Source: Flavobacteriales bacterium (GTDB lineage: Bacteria > Bacteroidota > Bacteroidia > Flavobacteriales > Flavobacteriaceae). Taken from it: a DNA stretch of 48,133 bases. The DNA lies in the NCBI GenBank assembly GCA_027066995.1, contig JAMOMQ010000042.1, positions 1 to 48,133 on the forward strand. The letters run 5' to 3'. The first letter of the stretch is position 1, and the number at the start of each line of letters is the position of its first letter. Below the pieces are notes generated by a model, which searched no databases, was not told the DNA's origin, and was given only the letters and a program-made list of their open reading frames with translations. The position numbers and the translations under genes are program-made. Of the stretch, positions 30,007-35,143 are shown one piece after another.

Positions 30007-31089
30007 TTATTTGTTTTTAAGGATTACTTCCTGTTTTTCAATACTTTCCTGATGTATGGCTTTGAACAACCTCCGGATAAATTTTTCGGATAATTGCAGT
30101 TTTTGTCCTTTGTCGATGGCTTTTTGCATGATTTCTTCCCAGCGGGCACTTTGTAAAACGGCTACATTTTTTTGTTTTTTGATACGTCCTATTTCTTGGG
30201 CTATTTTCATGCGTTCGGACAGCAATTCCAGTAGTTCGTTATCGAGTTGATTGATTTGTCCGCGGTAAAAATCCAGTTTGTCCAAAAGTTCGGGGTCGGC
30301 AAAGTTTTGTTTTCGCAAGCATAGTTTCTCTATAATTTGTAAGAGTTGTTTGGGCGTTACTTGTTGTTTGGCATCGCTCCAAGCTTGGTCGGGATTGATA
30401 TGGGTTTCAATCATAAAACCTTGATATTGCAGGTCGAGCCCCATTTGTGCCATGTCGTAAATACAATCTCTCCGTCCGCAGATATGCGAAGGGTCTAGTA
30501 TCATGGGGATATTGGGGTAACGCTGTTTAAAATCCAATGCCAATTGCCAGTTGGGTTCATTGCGGTATTGTCCGGGGCGAAAACTCGAAAAACCGCGGTG
30601 AATTACACCAATATCAGTCATGCCTACTTGGTGAAAACGTTCAACGGCACCAATCCACAAAGACAAATCGGGGTTAACCGGATTTTTTATCAAAATAATC
30701 TTGCTGCTGCCGCGAATGGCATCGGCTATTTCTTGCACGGCAAACGGATTGACCGAAGTGCGTGCGCCTATCCAAAGTATGTCAATGTCGTATTTCAATG
30801 CCAGTTCGGCATGGTGGGCATTGGCTATTTCAATAGCTATTTTCATGCCGGTTTCGTCTTTAACTTTTTTGAGCCAAGGCAGTGCCGGTTCGCCTATGCC
30901 TTCAAAATTGCCCGGACGGGTGCGGGGTTTCCATACGCCGGCACGAAATACTTGTATGCGCTTATCTACCAGTCCGCGAGCTGTTGCCAATACTTGTTCT
31001 TCGGTTTCGGCACTGCAAGGTCCCGCTATCATTAACGGGTATTGCGGTGCTATTTGTTCTAACCAATGATTGAGTTTTTTTGTTTGCAT
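30007..31089 (-). CDS. Bifunctional DAHP synthase/chorismate mutase
   Basis: This is a 360-residue bifunctional enzyme. Residues 1-260 are a KDPG-like (AroA-Ibeta) DAHP synthase (YPLMIAGPCSAETEEQV, VFRAGVWKPRTRPGNFEG, HRGFSSF, MILDPSHICGRRDCI, GFMIETHINPDQAWSDAKQQV), which makes the first shikimate-pathway intermediate. Residues 275-355 are an AroQ-type chorismate mutase (LDFYRGQINQLDNELLELLSERMKIAQEIGRIK). I chose the ATG at 31089. The open frame extends to 31170 only through the period-8 tandem repeat. It is the last gene of the leftward aromatic operon. Confidence 0.93.
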   Translation of the reverse strand: MQTKKLNHWLEQIAPQYPLMIAGPCSAETEEQVLATARGLVDKRIQVFRAGVWKPRTRPGNFEGIGEPALPWLKKVKDETGMKIAIEIANAHHAELALKYDIDILWIGARTSVNPFAVQEIADAIRGSSKIILIKNPVNPDLSLWIGAVERFHQVGMTDIGVIHRGFSSFRPGQYRNEPNWQLALDFKQRYPNIPMILDPSHICGRRDCIYDMAQMGLDLQYQGFMIETHINPDQAWSDAKQQVTPKQLLQIIEKLCLRKQNFADPELLDKLDFYRGQINQLDNELLELLSERMKIAQEIGRIKKQKNVAVLQSARWEEIMQKAIDKGQKLQLSEKFIRRLFKAIHQESIEKQEVILKNK

Positions 31090-31103
31090 ATTTTTTGTTG
31101 TTT

Positions 31104-31155
31104 GATGAATCGATGAATTGATGAACTGATGAATCGATGAATTAATTGATGAATC
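31104..31155. repeat. Period-8 tandem array between tyrA and the DAHP synthase gene
   Basis: Six units follow one another: GATGAATC, GATGAATT, GATGAACT, GATGAATC, a 12-base GATGAATTAATT, GATGAATC. The array sits between the tyrA stop and the DAHP synthase start and could be translated as an artefactual N-terminal extension. Confidence 0.7.
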
Positions 31156-31156
31156 A

Positions 31157-31996
31157 TTAGGAAATATCATCTATAATCTTTCCTATGTAATTAATTTGTG
31201 TTAAGGTTTCTTTTATTTTTTGATGATTTTCTCGGTATAACATTGCTTTAAAGTCATTCAAATTATCGAGGTATTCATCTAAGGCTTGCAATATAGGTTC
31301 TTTGTTTTCCAAAAAAATAGGTGTCCACGTGGCCGGTGAGCTTTTGGCGAGCCTGACGGTGGAAGCAAATCCCGAACCTGCCATGCGAAAGATGTTTTTT
31401 TCGTCTTTTTCCAAATCTAAAACGGTTTTGCCCAACATAAATGAACTGATATGCGACAAATGAGATACATAAGCAATGTGTCTATCGTGTTCATTGCTGT
31501 TCATTTCAATGGTTTTCATCTGTAAGGTGTCGAATATTTTTAAGGCTTTTTGCAAAATTTCGGGTTTGGTTTTTTCGGTATCGCAAACAATGTTCATTTT
31601 ACGGGTAAACAAGCCGGGAAAAGCGGCTTCGGGTCCCGAGTATTCGGTTCCGGCAATGGGGTGTGCCAATACAAAATTGTGTCTGTTTGTATGATTTTCA
31701 ATGGCTTTTGCCAGTTTGTGTTTGGTAGATCCCACATCAAAAACCAAGGTTTCGGGTTTGATTTTATCCAATATATTCAAAGCGAGTTGGGGTAGGGTAT
31801 TAACCGGTGTGGCTAAAATGATGAGGTCCATTTCGGGTATGATTTCATCGGTTAGTTTGTCCGAAATTAATCCCAAACTCAAAGCTTTTTCAAAGTTGTA
31901 TTTGTCGTTTCCGTAAATCTTGTTATTTGGTATATTGCGCAGTGCCAATGCCATGGAGCCGCCTATTAAACCTAAACCTATAATACCTGTTTTCAT
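31157..31996 (-). CDS. tyrA: Prephenate dehydrogenase
   Basis: This is a 279-residue enzyme. Its N-terminal NAD(P)-binding Rossmann fold has GLGLIGGS (7-14), and the catalytic half shows ATPVNTLP, DVGSTKHKLAKAIE, LAHPIAGTEYSGPEAAFPGLF and HDRHIAYVSHLSHISSFML. It converts prephenate to 4-hydroxyphenylpyruvate for tyrosine synthesis. It lacks the fused chorismate mutase and ACT domains. In the operon it lies between the aminotransferase (111-base gap holding palindromes) and the DAHP synthase/mutase. Confidence 0.9.
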   Translation of the reverse strand: MKTGIIGLGLIGGSMALALRNIPNNKIYGNDKYNFEKALSLGLISDKLTDEIIPEMDLIILATPVNTLPQLALNILDKIKPETLVFDVGSTKHKLAKAIENHTNRHNFVLAHPIAGTEYSGPEAAFPGLFTRKMNIVCDTEKTKPEILQKALKIFDTLQMKTIEMNSNEHDRHIAYVSHLSHISSFMLGKTVLDLEKDEKNIFRMAGSGFASTVRLAKSSPATWTPIFLENKEPILQALDEYLDNLNDFKAMLYRENHQKIKETLTQINYIGKIIDDIS

Positions 31997-32107: not shown

Positions 32108-33253
32108 TTACGTATCATCTATCCTTTTTAATGCCTTTTGCAATGTTTTTTCATCGTTGGTCAATGAAATTCTGACATAATTGTTGCCGTTTTGACCGAA
32201 AATAAATCCGGGTGCGATAAATATATCTTTTTCTGCCAGTAATTTGTCGGTAAAATCTTTTGAATTTTCTCCTTGGGGTAATTTTGCCCATAAAAACATA
32301 CCGGATTGATTTTCAGCTATTTTTAAGTTTAATGTCCGGCAAATTTTTTCGGCGATTTTTTTTCGTTTTTCATAAATTTTATTTAGTTTTTTATACCACT
32401 TATTATTAATGTGCAATGCTTCAATGGCTGCCATTTGTGTGCCGAGAAACATGCCGCTGTCCATTTGACTTTTGAATTTCATAACGCTGTCAATCAGTTT
32501 CTTTTGTCCCAGCATCATACCTATACGCCAGCCTGCCATATTGTGCGATTTGCTGAGTGAGTTGAGTTCAACGGCAACGTCTATGGCACCTTCAATTTGC
32601 AGTATGCTACGGGGTTTGTCGGTCAAAATAAAGCTATACGGGTTGTCGTTTATCAATAAAATTTTGTGCCGGCGGGCAAAATTTACCAGTTTCTCAAATT
32701 GTTTTTTGTTTGCTTGTGTGCCTGTGGGCATGTGCGGATAATTTATCCACATGAGTTTTACTTTGGATAAGTCTTGTTTTTTGAGTTTTTTTAAGTTGGG
32801 AAAATAGCCGCCGGTTTCGGTTAAATTGTAAGTAACCGGCACAGCTTCTGCCAATAGGGTTGCCGAGCGATATGTCATATAGCCCGGGTCGGGTATAAGC
32901 ACTTGGTCGCCCGGGTTGAGCAGCGCCATTGACAAGTGCAAAATACCTTCTTTGGAACCGGTCAAGGGCAGAACTTGGTTTTGAGACGAGAGTTTTACAC
33001 CGTAATGTTTTTTGTAAAATTTTGCGATGGCTTTTCTCAGTTTCGGATGTCCGCGGTAGCTTTGATACCGGTGCGTGTTGTTTTGCAGTGCATATTCGGC
33101 CATAACTTTTCGCACTTTTTTGGGTGGCGGCAAGTCGGGGCTGCCTATACCGAGATTGATAATGGCACGTCCTTGTGCTTGCAGTTGCCGAATTTCTTGC
33201 AGTTTTTTTGAAAAATAATACTCTTCGATATGTTGTAATCGTTGGGCTGTCAT
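32108..33253 (-). CDS. PLP-dependent class I/II aminotransferase
   Basis: This is a 381-residue fold-type I aminotransferase. Visible features are NLGIGSPDLPPP near the N-terminus, YRGHPKLRKAIAKFY, the PDPGYMTY segment, NYPHMPTGT, and the PLP-lysine loop ELNSLSKSHNMAGWRIG. The C-terminal motif YVRISLTNDE is present. Placed between pheA and tyrA, it most likely transaminates phenylpyruvate and 4-hydroxyphenylpyruvate (or prephenate). I chose ATG at 33253, 7 bases after pheA. The longer frame to 33319 overlaps pheA. Confidence 0.88.
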   Translation of the reverse strand: MTAQRLQHIEEYYFSKKLQEIRQLQAQGRAIINLGIGSPDLPPPKKVRKVMAEYALQNNTHRYQSYRGHPKLRKAIAKFYKKHYGVKLSSQNQVLPLTGSKEGILHLSMALLNPGDQVLIPDPGYMTYRSATLLAEAVPVTYNLTETGGYFPNLKKLKKQDLSKVKLMWINYPHMPTGTQANKKQFEKLVNFARRHKILLINDNPYSFILTDKPRSILQIEGAIDVAVELNSLSKSHNMAGWRIGMMLGQKKLIDSVMKFKSQMDSGMFLGTQMAAIEALHINNKWYKKLNKIYEKRKKIAEKICRTLNLKIAENQSGMFLWAKLPQGENSKDFTDKLLAEKDIFIAPGFIFGQNGNNYVRISLTNDEKTLQKALKRIDDT

Positions 33254-33260
33254 TTTGCTG

Positions 33261-34079
33261 TTATTCTTTTTTATGTTTGTATTCTCCCAAAATTTTGAGT
33301 TCGATAACCTGACGGGCAACTTTATACATGGCTAACTGGTATTTGTCGATGTCATCAATCAACAAATCGACAAAGAAAGCATATTCCCAAGGTTTATCAA
33401 TGATGGGGACGGATTGAATTTTGCTCATATTTAAGCCGTGTTCGTTAAAGATTTGCAAAATATTTACCAAGCTGCCGGGTTCGTGCGAAAGTTTGAAGCG
33501 GATAGAAGCTTTGTTAAAATTTTTTTGTGCATGACCGTTTTTCAGGTCTAATACCACAAACCGGGTTGCATTGATTTTGTTGGTTTGTATGCTTTCGGCT
33601 ATGATTTGCAAGTTGTATATTTTGGCGGCTTCGTAGCCGGCTATGGCAGCTATGCCTTTTAGTTGGCGTTGTTGAATGATTTTTGCCATTTCGGCGGTAT
33701 CTTTTTCTTCGACCAATTTGATATGCGGGTGGTTTCTAAAAAATTTGCGGCATTGTAGCAGTGCCATCGGGTGGCTCCATACTTCTTTGATATCTTCAAT
33801 TTTTTGACCTGGCAAAGCCATAAGGTGATGGTGGATAGGCAGGTAGTATTCGCCGTCAATGTGCAAGTCGTATTCGTCTATTAAAGCATAGTTGGGCAGT
33901 ATGGCGCCGGCAATGGTGTTTTCGATAGCCATAACACCTTTGTCTATTTGTTTTTGTTTTAGCAGTCGGGGTATGTCGTTAAAGTCCATGCACTCGACAA
34001 ACTCATGTTCGTCGCCAAACAAATTTTTGGCTACTTCGTAATGAAATGAACCGATGGTTCCTTGTATGCCTATTTTCAT
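33261..34079 (-). CDS. pheA: Prephenate dehydratase with ACT domain
   Basis: This is a 272-residue enzyme. The N-terminal PDT domain has KIGIQGTIGSFHYEVAKNLF, GVMAIENTIAGAI and the NATRFVVL motif (the usual T-R-F). The C-terminal ACT domain (about 190-270) has EPGSLVNILQIFNEHGLNMSKIQSVPI, the phenylalanine-binding GALV/ESRP equivalent. It converts prephenate to phenylpyruvate and is probably feedback-inhibited by phenylalanine. It is the first structural gene of the leftward operon, preceded by the leader peptide and attenuator (34219-34348). Confidence 0.93.
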   Translation of the reverse strand: MKIGIQGTIGSFHYEVAKNLFGDEHEFVECMDFNDIPRLLKQKQIDKGVMAIENTIAGAILPNYALIDEYDLHIDGEYYLPIHHHLMALPGQKIEDIKEVWSHPMALLQCRKFFRNHPHIKLVEEKDTAEMAKIIQQRQLKGIAAIAGYEAAKIYNLQIIAESIQTNKINATRFVVLDLKNGHAQKNFNKASIRFKLSHEPGSLVNILQIFNEHGLNMSKIQSVPIIDKPWEYAFFVDLLIDDIDKYQLAMYKVARQVIELKILGEYKHKKE

Positions 34080-34086
34080 GTTGTTT

Positions 34087-34126
34087 ATCGTTTAATCGTT
34101 GAATTGTTTGATCGTTTAATCGTGTA
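34087..34126. repeat. Period-8 tandem array upstream of pheA
   Basis: Five units: ATCGTTTA, ATCGTTGA, ATTGTTTG, ATCGTTTA, ATCGTGTA. Read on the minus strand they belong to the same family as the arrays at 7480 and 31104. It lies in the pheA 5' untranslated region, between the REP-like element and the start codon. Confidence 0.65.
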
Positions 34127-34209
34127 ACTGTCATTTCAAGCGATAGCGAGAAATCTCTTGCTATAACTGATAAAATTCCTCACTCGTTCCTCGCTTTGGA
34201 ATGATAGGT
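34127..34209. repeat. REP-like palindromic element
   Basis: Two arms of REP type, the first around TGTCATTTC..GCGAG..AAATCTC and the second its imperfect complement with CTCGTTCCTCGC..GGAATGATAG. This element family recurs at 41955-42081 and, as a single arm, inside 39051-39179. It separates the attenuator from pheA. Confidence 0.6.
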
Positions 34210-34218
34210 AAAATCATT

Positions 34219-34252
34219 AAAAAAGTCCCGAAAATTTTTCGGGACTTTTTTA
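34219..34252 (-). terminator. Attenuator terminator of the aromatic operon
   Basis: On the minus strand AAAAAGTCCCGAAAA pairs with TTTTCGGGACTTTTT, an uninterrupted long stem followed by six U residues. It is located between the leader peptide and pheA, about 140 bases before pheA, so it is a premature terminator and not an end-of-operon signal. Its 5' arm can alternatively pair with 34281-34288. Confidence 0.8.
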
Positions 34253-34288
34253 ATTAAAACATTATTTTAATTATGCATACAAAGTCCC
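34241..34288 (-). promoter_or_regulatory. Antiterminator pairing region
   Basis: The leader frame contains GGGACTTT (34288-34281, minus strand), the exact complement of AAAGTCCC in the terminator 5' arm (34248-34241). When this pairs, the terminator cannot form. A ribosome at the leader stop codon would cover the element. A further AUGCAUA/UAUGCAU pairing within the leader could act as the protector stem. Confidence 0.65.
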
Positions 34289-34348
34289 TTCTTTTACGTT
34301 AAAATAAAAGTAAAAAAAGAAACCGAAATATGCATTCCAACTATTCAT
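34271..34348 (-). CDS. Phe/Tyr-rich leader peptide of the aromatic operon
   Basis: This is a 25-codon open frame (ATG at 34348, TAA at 34273-34271), too short for routine gene finding. The core reads YFGFFFYFYF: nine aromatics in ten residues, with six Phe and four Tyr plus one Trp in the whole peptide. A -7 box TATATTTG lies 20 bases upstream. The peptide frame is followed by an antiterminator segment and a strong terminator before pheA. This is the architecture of ribosome-mediated attenuation: stalling on Phe or Tyr codons lets the antiterminator form, and free translation allows termination. I cannot tell whether it has been described in this lineage. Confidence 0.8.
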   Translation of the reverse strand: MNSWNAYFGFFFYFYFNVKEGTLYA

Positions 34349-34367
34349 AGTATTGGGTTTTGTATTG

Positions 34368-34375
34368 CAAATATA
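34368..34375 (-). promoter_or_regulatory. -7 promoter box of the leader/aromatic operon
   Basis: On the minus strand this reads TATATTTG, an exact TAnnTTTG match 19 bases before the leader ATG, which predicts a short untranslated segment. A weak TTTTTAG lies near the -33 position. No other match fits between the preceding gene stop and the leader. Confidence 0.55.
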
Positions 34376-34402: not shown

Positions 34403-35143
34403 CTATTTAAATTTTACTTCAAAATCCAATAGTTTTGGATTATTAAAAAGGACATTAGCGGGCAATTCTATGATTAAAGTCTTTTTGTCGGCACTCAACA
34501 GGGCATCTTTATTACTGACAGATTTTATTTCATACGGAAAGTGATATATCAATTTGTATTTGAACATGCCCAGCATGGCTTCCGTTTTGTTGTTTATGCT
34601 GTCGTTTGTTTTTTTACTTTTAACCATTTGGACTTTACGGCGAAATTTTCTTTTGTTAAATTCGTATTTCACCTTTGTTTTGGGCATATCATTGGTCATA
34701 TCCGTCATGATACTGTTTTTGTCCTTACGGTTTTTCTCTATTTTTTCAAATTTGTCAAGAATATTGTCTAAATCGGCAACCTTTTTAAACGGATAAATGT
34801 ATGCCATGGTCATTTCACCTTTGATTTCGTTGGCGTGGAGTTTTACAACTGCATTTTTCATTTTTTCTAACCATTCTCTTTCTTCTTTCGGAAGTTGTGC
34901 TATGCTATCTTTTTTATCTTCCAACATATCAACTAATTTGTAAACGGTATCTTTTACCAAGGGCTTTTTGTTTTTTTTCAGGCTGTCGTTTTCTTTTCCC
35001 ATTCCTTTGGCCATTGACATAAAGCCGCTCATATCTATCGCTAATTGAAATTCACCGCTTCCATCTTTATTGAAAGTGATTTCTTCGTTTAATTGACAAG
35101 ACGAAAATATAAGGACAAGGCTGAGTAAGAGTAATTTTTTCAT
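34403..35143 (-). CDS. Lipoprotein of unknown function
   Basis: This is a 246-residue predicted lipoprotein with signal KKLLLLSLVLIFSSC and lipobox cysteine at residue 16. The start EITFNKDGSGEFQLAIDMSGFMSMAKGM and end ADKKTLIIELPANVLFNNPKLLDFEVKF suggest a beta-rich periplasmic domain, as in several Bacteroidota lipoproteins. A central lysine-rich helix is present. No family was named. It ends just before the aromatic-operon promoter, so it does not read into the operon without a further signal. Confidence 0.6.
   Translation of the reverse strand: MKKLLLLSLVLIFSSCQLNEEITFNKDGSGEFQLAIDMSGFMSMAKGMGKENDSLKKNKKPLVKDTVYKLVDMLEDKKDSIAQLPKEEREWLEKMKNAVVKLHANEIKGEMTMAYIYPFKKVADLDNILDKFEKIEKNRKDKNSIMTDMTNDMPKTKVKYEFNKRKFRRKVQMVKSKKTNDSINNKTEAMLGMFKYKLIYHFPYEIKSVSNKDALLSADKKTLIIELPANVLFNNPKLLDFEVKFK

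Follow-up and report, generated by a model that had tools for sequence, protein, structure and literature searches.

The window, the whole stretch of 48,133 nucleotides of Flavobacteriaceae DNA that was analyzed, carries on its minus strand a run of aromatic amino acid genes preceded by a short open reading frame rich in Phe and Tyr codons. The features of this locus are given below in their order on that strand.

34403-35143, minus strand: upstream gene, on the same strand as the leader, ending 54 nt before the leader ORF
34368..34375, minus strand: promoter box TATATTTG of the Bacteroidota sigma-A type (TAnnTTTG)
34271..34348, minus strand: leader ORF MNSWNAYFGFFFYFYFNVKEGTLYA, 25 codons plus the stop codon TAA
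34327..34335, minus strand: 5′ arm of the outer protector stem (within ATGCATATT), from folding and covariation
34301..34330, minus strand: aromatic regulatory codons YFGFFFYFYF (region 1), ending at the closing point of the computed switch
34281..34297, minus strand: 3′ arm of the inner protector stem, GTAAAAGAAGGGACTTT, from folding
34288-34281, minus strand: region 2 of the antiterminator, GGGACTTT, the last eight bases of GTAAAAGAAGGGACTTT
34273..34280, minus strand: 3′ arm of the outer protector stem, GTATGCAT, from folding and covariation
34237..34251, minus strand: region 3, the 5′ terminator arm AAAAAAGTCCCGAAA, which is also the partner of region 2
34219..34233, minus strand: region 4, the 3′ terminator arm TTTCGGGACTTTTTT with its U run
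33261..34079, minus strand: pheA, prephenate dehydratase with an ACT domain (PF00800, 5e-55; PF01842, 8.3e-07)
32108..33319, minus strand: class I/II aminotransferase (PF00155, 1.7e-65); with its mechanically listed start codon it overlaps the end of pheA
31157..31996, minus strand: tyrA, prephenate dehydrogenase (PF02153, 7.2e-31; PF20463, 9.3e-24)
30007..31170, minus strand: DAHP synthase fused to chorismate mutase type II (PF00793, 5.1e-35; PF01817, 2e-23)

The end of the upstream gene at 34403 is followed by the box, the leader ORF, a U-tailed hairpin (34251-34219) and pheA, which is the first gene on the 3′ side and begins 191 nt beyond the leader stop. Transcription would start near 34363. 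An aromatic-rich leader ORF and a terminator-like hairpin thus stand ahead of the first gene, as in an attenuator. The first-pass annotation had proposed one here, and the promoter box, the 25-codon frame with its core YFGFFFYFYF, region 2, the stop codon and both terminator arms that it described are all present. Between the terminator and pheA we also observed a repeat with 8-nt spacing (window 34084-34131) and a segment (34130-34216) that recurs in partial form on contigs C32, C137 and C121 of this genome.

The minus-strand leader RNA (34361-34211, 151 nt), whose folding had been proposed as a check, proved strongly stable: its energy was -48.8 kcal/mol with a z-score of -7.7, and none of 200 shuffled sequences was as good. 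Leader RNA lacking the terminator gave a z-score of -5.0 (0/200 shuffles) and formed a long 1:2 hairpin. The outer part of this hairpin consists of AUGCAUAU paired with GUAUGCAU, and in its inner part the Phe/Tyr codons are paired with GUAAAAGAAGGGACUUU. Region 2 (GGGACUUU) is common to the 1:2 hairpin and to the antiterminator, which it forms with AAAGUCCC; the suggested alternative pairing between the end of the ORF and the 5′ terminator arm therefore exists. The AUGCAUA/UAUGCAU pairing, earlier considered a possible protector stem, is real and turned out to be the outer part of the longer 1:2 hairpin, and the covariation presented below supports this protector stem.

A search of relatives upstream of pheA had also been proposed. 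From 149 family genomes drawn, 130 had a PheA match and all 130 upstream regions were examined; the 19 genomes with no match were left out. We looked for an ORF 10 to 60 codons long in which a stretch of 12 residues contains six or more F/Y, together with a terminator-like hairpin scoring at least 20 and lying in the interval from 5 nt ahead of the ORF stop to 90 nt beyond it. By this fixed criterion an F/Y-rich ORF and a terminator precede pheA in 126 of the 130 genomes; absence of both the aromatic run and the hairpin from relatives was the outcome that the first-pass annotation had set against its own proposal. The same search found the element in 0/130 dinucleotide shuffles (one for each upstream region) and in 0/130 reverse strands of these regions. 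Among 288 tiles of the window four scored, namely the target, one chance ORF counted twice in overlapping tiles and another chance ORF. These comparisons indicate that the leader-plus-terminator element of the family is not a product of chance.

One of the 126 leaders, that of L009, was counted only after the region had been lengthened, as 963 nt, including an inserted ORF and palindromic repeats, separate it from pheA. On the same contig (L038:3087-4000; same genus as the window) the ORF between the leader terminator and pheA encodes 197 residues; by eye it resembles a REP-associated transposase, and it has no Pfam match at 0.001. The insertion holds four copies of a 40-nt repeat, and the attenuator now precedes the 197-aa ORF too. 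Among the four misses, the sequence of L097 starts at a contig edge, inside an apparent leader. No leader was seen in the sequence at hand for L018, whose DAHP synthase lies elsewhere in the genome, or for L108, which has kept the operon genes; L154 has kept them as well, and no leader was found in the less than 400 nt available upstream. At L169:311-1198 (G035) the operon genes were seen with no attenuator. The PheA frame there appears to be extended upstream by additional N-terminal residues (MSFRKKNALQFLYFSIFALFILEEKIAIQG), which may be what is left of a leader after in-frame fusion.

Pairing between the regions was analyzed by duplex swaps in 135 leaders (the 126 of the family and nine from named contigs). 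Regions 2 and 3 taken from the same genome paired with a mean of -11.3 kcal/mol versus -8.4 kcal/mol for swapped partners, and the 1:2 pairing gave -14.3 versus -10.4 kcal/mol; in both cases 0/5000 permutations reached the mean of the matched pairs. Covariation was scored on an alignment made by sequence and not by structure (109 rows after redundancy filtering, 70 listed, 60 aligned). The 2:3 pairing scored 0.301 against a shuffled mean of 0.208, the terminator (3:4) 0.389 against 0.228, and the outer protector stem 0.405 against 0.236, each with 0/500 shuffles as high and each above all six slid controls; the permutation and shuffle controls only partly remove the effect of relatedness. Pairing was possible in 73.5% of alignment cells for 2:3, 94.8% for 3:4 and 77.7% for the outer stem. 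RNAalifold on its own recovered the terminator and no 1:2 or 2:3 structure; because it gave neither with truncated alignments, the named-pair tests and duplex swaps were used. The antiterminator, which excludes the terminator and takes in the end of the ORF, is thus seen in both the swaps and the covariation. In two loci of family f8 (L200 and L201) the 2:3 stem has a very different sequence and pairing can be kept: the L200 ORF contains AGCGGTC, and both loci have GACCGCT in their terminator arms.

The gene upstream of the leader is codirectional and ends only 54 nt before the leader ORF, as would be expected if the hairpin were simply the terminator of that gene and the short ORF either fortuitous or a functional small protein. 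A promoter-like box lies, however, between that gene and the leader ORF. In near relatives the upstream neighbors vary (that of L042 is on the opposite strand), whereas leader and pheA remain together. Moreover, the ORF contains region 2, and between genera this region shows covariation with region 3, something that neither a simple terminator nor a simple peptide needs. On the box, the constant link to pheA and the 2:3 covariation we rejected this explanation, which we regard as very improbable.

The effect of a ribosome on the attenuator RNA was modeled with a 28-nt mask on transcripts ending at region 3 of the 135 leaders. Mean 2:3 pairing was 0.92 to 0.94 for A-site positions from codon -21 to codon -10, counted from the stop; it was 0.84, 0.48, 0.23 and 0.14 at codons -9 to -6, 0.09 at codon -5 and 0.00 at the stop. 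Pairing of at least 0.5 at some F/Y codon was found in 130/135 leaders, and all 135 gave less than 0.1 at the stop. In the computed masking, a stalled ribosome thus frees region 2 and a ribosome at the stop covers it. The aromatic run ends at about codons -8 to -10, which is also the point of closure of the computed switch, with F or Y at codon -10 in 124 and at codon -11 in 127 of the 135 leaders. For the leader of the window, 2:3 pairing stayed at 0.95 to 1.00 between codons 3 and 17 and was 0.00 with the ribosome on any of the final three sense codons or on the stop. Its ribosome-free value was 0.24, with the 1:2 hairpin dominating, versus a mean of 0.71 over the 135 leaders; the full three-state pattern, with free RNA below 0.5, was obtained in only 32 of them. 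As most relatives favor the antiterminator when folded ribosome-free, some of them may lack a working protector.

The proposed mechanism is as follows. RNA polymerase would transcribe the leader with a ribosome close behind. When charged Phe and Tyr tRNAs are plentiful, the ribosome would reach the stop codon and cover region 2, so that regions 3 and 4 would form the terminator and transcription would stop before pheA. When Phe or Tyr is scarce, it would stall in the YFGFFFYFYF run and cover region 1, leaving region 2 free to pair with region 3 as the antiterminator, and the operon would be transcribed. With no ribosome, folding predicts that the 1:2 hairpin would compete for region 2, strongly in the window and more weakly in most relatives. 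Taking together the sequence, the possible pairings, the conservation, the covariation and the computed geometry, we consider it very likely that a ribosome-mediated attenuator of the trp/phe type controls the operon of pheA, aminotransferase, tyrA and DAHP synthase. From the same material we infer that the leader is transcribed and translated and that termination responds to Phe and Tyr. The comparative data are strongly positive for a Phe/Tyr ribosome-stalling attenuator, which was the original proposal and is the best reading of the locus.

The pheA attenuator of E. coli uses a ribosome-mediated mechanism with a Phe-rich leader. The element described here shares with it, and with Rfam family RF01859 (Phe_leader), a Phe-rich leader ORF before the prephenate dehydratase gene, alternative 1:2, 2:3 and 3:4 pairings and a U-tailed terminator. 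It differs in its mixed Phe and Tyr codons, in the near absence of Shine-Dalgarno-like sites and in an operon that also contains tyrA and DAHP synthase. By score the window leader does not belong to RF01859 (24 bits versus a gathering score of 55), and no Rfam family reached its gathering score anywhere in the window. T-boxes regulate tyrosine genes elsewhere (PMC1262725), so that a leader bound by tRNA or by a repressor protein, with the same terminator and an incidental ORF, could be envisaged. A T-box or known riboswitch was rejected, as in addition to the lack of any gathering-score family there was no T-box among the 56 weak Rfam matches of the leader. A conserved F/Y codon frame that has a start context and ends where the computed switch closes also argues against binding of tRNA or repressor, and we give this explanation hardly any weight.

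The Bacteroidota promoter consensus is TAnnTTTG at -12 to -5 (PMC9723704). A strict box within 70 nt of the leader ATG was found in only 26/125 relatives, with 6.3 expected from mononucleotide shuffles. ATG is the start in 125 of the 126 family leaders. Of the 126, 98 have A at position -3 and 77 have it at position -6; an SD-like 4-mer (AGGA, GGAG or GAGG at -20 to -4) occurs in 1/126. A at these positions marks strong starts in Flavobacteria.

The 126 family leaders contain 675 Phe and 448 Tyr codons, and both residues occur at codons -22 to -10 in 121 of them; both are also held by 30/30 leaders of a second order. A leader with Phe and Tyr runs had been thought to match an operon that makes both amino acids, and the Pfam assignments of pheA and tyrA downstream bear this out. 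Alternatively, the attenuator could effectively respond to Phe only, Tyr codons being tolerated because UAU/UAC pair in the stems too. Phe is the more frequent of the two in codons -22 to -10 (means of 4.1 versus 2.8), the conserved Thr-Tyr codon pair participates in the outer stem, and the attenuators named in the available text of PMC1262725 include Phe and omit Tyr. Against this stand the number of Tyr codons, the joint presence of F and Y in nearly all family leaders and every second-order leader, and an operon that makes both amino acids; we therefore consider a Phe-only switch unlikely. That Phe and Tyr both act as inputs of the attenuator is somewhat less sure than the attenuator itself.

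A Trp codon was found in 84/126 family leaders, exactly one in 83 of them, and Trp makes up 5.2% of residues at codons -22 to -10 versus 0.86% in eight proteins of the window. This enrichment alone is not proof, because TGG accounts for 1.0% of triplets in the same upstream regions and because Asn and Thr are frequent in the leaders too. A ribosome mask placed at the Trp codon gave an antiterminator of at least 0.5 in 80 of the 84 leaders. Trp occupies four columns of the 60-row alignment; in the second order 13/30 leaders have one Trp and 17/30 none. A 68-row PheA tree calls for no fewer than 14 changes in the Trp codon, and well-supported branches force 11 of these, which by sequence comparison shows lability and not selection.

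DAHP synthase genes were searched in 39 genomes, and 37 had one match stronger than 1e-100. By comparison of positions by eye, this sole strong copy follows pheA at close distance and in the same orientation in 36 of the 37, the one left over being G023. A further DAHP synthase-chorismate mutase (identities of 53% and 52%) is encoded elsewhere in the two genomes of the window's genus, at G000:C156:21322-22389 (L164) and G128:C22:263720-264781 (L165). Weaker matches were found in nearly all 39 genomes (G047 has one at 2.3e-28) and are probably KDO8P-synthase-like, as suggested by their length and score; the 39 genomes contained no type II DAHP enzyme. A second attenuated aromatic locus at G000:C156 and G128:C22 was considered and rejected, as no aromatic leader with a terminator was visible in 500 nt upstream, where terminators were unscored; a TTG-started frame containing F/Y/W upstream of L164 was judged to be chance. 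No Trp codon is found in the window's eight near relatives (L009, L039-L044 and L052), and the window itself has one. A relation between the Trp codon and DAHP synthase number permits no conclusion, since this is one clade with the second copy checked in two genomes.

Outside the main family count, 25 loci of the same order (Flavobacteriales), out of 69 matched genomes, were examined by eye and under a relaxed criterion (5 F/Y/W in 12). An aromatic leader and terminator precede pheA in 3/3 loci of family f14 (two with only 5 aromatic residues), 1/1 of f3, 2/2 of f2 and 3/3 of f8, as well as in one further genome of the window's family (L212). The element is absent from the loci examined in f15 (6/6, genomes of 0.6 Mb), f4 (8/8, divergent PheA) and f11 (1/1). 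Three other orders were checked from PheA with 5 F/Y/W in 12 and a terminator score of 18. In the second order all 30 loci examined (41 matched) have the element before pheA. The third gave 4/30 (36 matched), where L280, 655 nt from pheA, looks like chance; the fourth gave 8/29 (29 matched), where L306, L316 and L327, at 457 to 574 nt, look like chance and the leader of L309 lies 268 nt from pheA. Nine Belliella/Algoriphagus loci had none (0/9).

Model R1 matched 60/296 genomes of the phylum, 30 of these in the window's family. Twenty of 75 match regions, mostly outside the family, were checked, and 14 precede a pheA-like gene as judged by eye from the translation. R1 was rejected as a finder of other attenuated operons, the remaining 6/20 regions being weak or secondary matches not located before a pheA-like gene. 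Among the loci examined, the element accompanies pheA products that start like (V/I)AIQG followed by SFH or SYH; pheA genes of this kind with no element are found at L303-L305, L308, L311 and L312. As judged from these sequences, the element is widespread in Bacteroidota, with a patchy distribution and several lineages lacking it. A metagenome-assembled genome labelled Gammaproteobacteria (L045) has a PheA 60% identical to that of the window and no detected leader, which may reflect transfer or misbinning.

The kind of switch is known, and the element is partly in print. Candidate attenuators were reportedly obtained by Vitreschak et al. in 2004, in work said to touch on Bacteroidetes/Chlorobi; they share with ours the mechanism and the use of comparative prediction. 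The 2021 transcriptome of Flavobacterium psychrophilum reports, in the part of the article available, 64 structured 5′ regions, clues to leader-peptide attenuation before amino acid operons, and conserved transcribed 5′ elements with no Rfam match upstream of pheA, hisG and other genes (PMC9723704). Its pheA element resembles the one described here in gene and family and is conserved in other Flavobacteriaceae genera, and it is very probably the same element. Section 19 of that article differs from the present account in giving the pheA element no leader peptide, amino acid specificity, covariation or range outside Flavobacteriaceae. The first-pass annotation had left novelty in Bacteroidota as a question: a pheA 5′ element and clues to attenuation were already in print (PMC9723704), and a Trp input had not entered its considerations. 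Small ORFs reminiscent of attenuation leaders are reported in Bacteroides (PMC7366714), where the word "phenylalanine" is absent from the text available; the available text of PMC2965389 contains neither "Bacteroidetes" nor "pheA". Among the matches listed from open-licence PMC full texts there was no closer report of such a leader in Bacteroidota. The distribution is wider than that found in print. Neither the combined Phe and Tyr specificity and its geometry nor the covariation was found there, and the same goes for the occurrence beyond the family and for the question of Trp.

The thr and ilvGMEDA leaders of E. coli contain codons for several amino acids and serve operons with several end products. 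The present leaders resemble them in that one leader would serve several end products, here Phe and Tyr and, if the leader codons are a guide, possibly Trp as a third input. We tentatively put forward, as a possibility of which we are far from convinced, a three-input attenuator, old in much of Bacteroidota, with Phe/Tyr runs and a single, repeatedly re-placed Trp codon, working with no Shine-Dalgarno sequence and needing close transcription-translation coupling. Trp would be sensed because the operon holds the only strong DAHP synthase in most genomes tested, and attenuation with no Shine-Dalgarno sequence would mean that coupling must be close at leaders in this phylum. Ribosome-mediated attenuation requires a ribosome close behind RNA polymerase, and with a widespread attenuator on SD-less leaders, transcription-translation coupling could be tested directly in Bacteroidota. 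Whether three amino acids jointly control the first shikimate step could be tested cheaply through the Trp codons.
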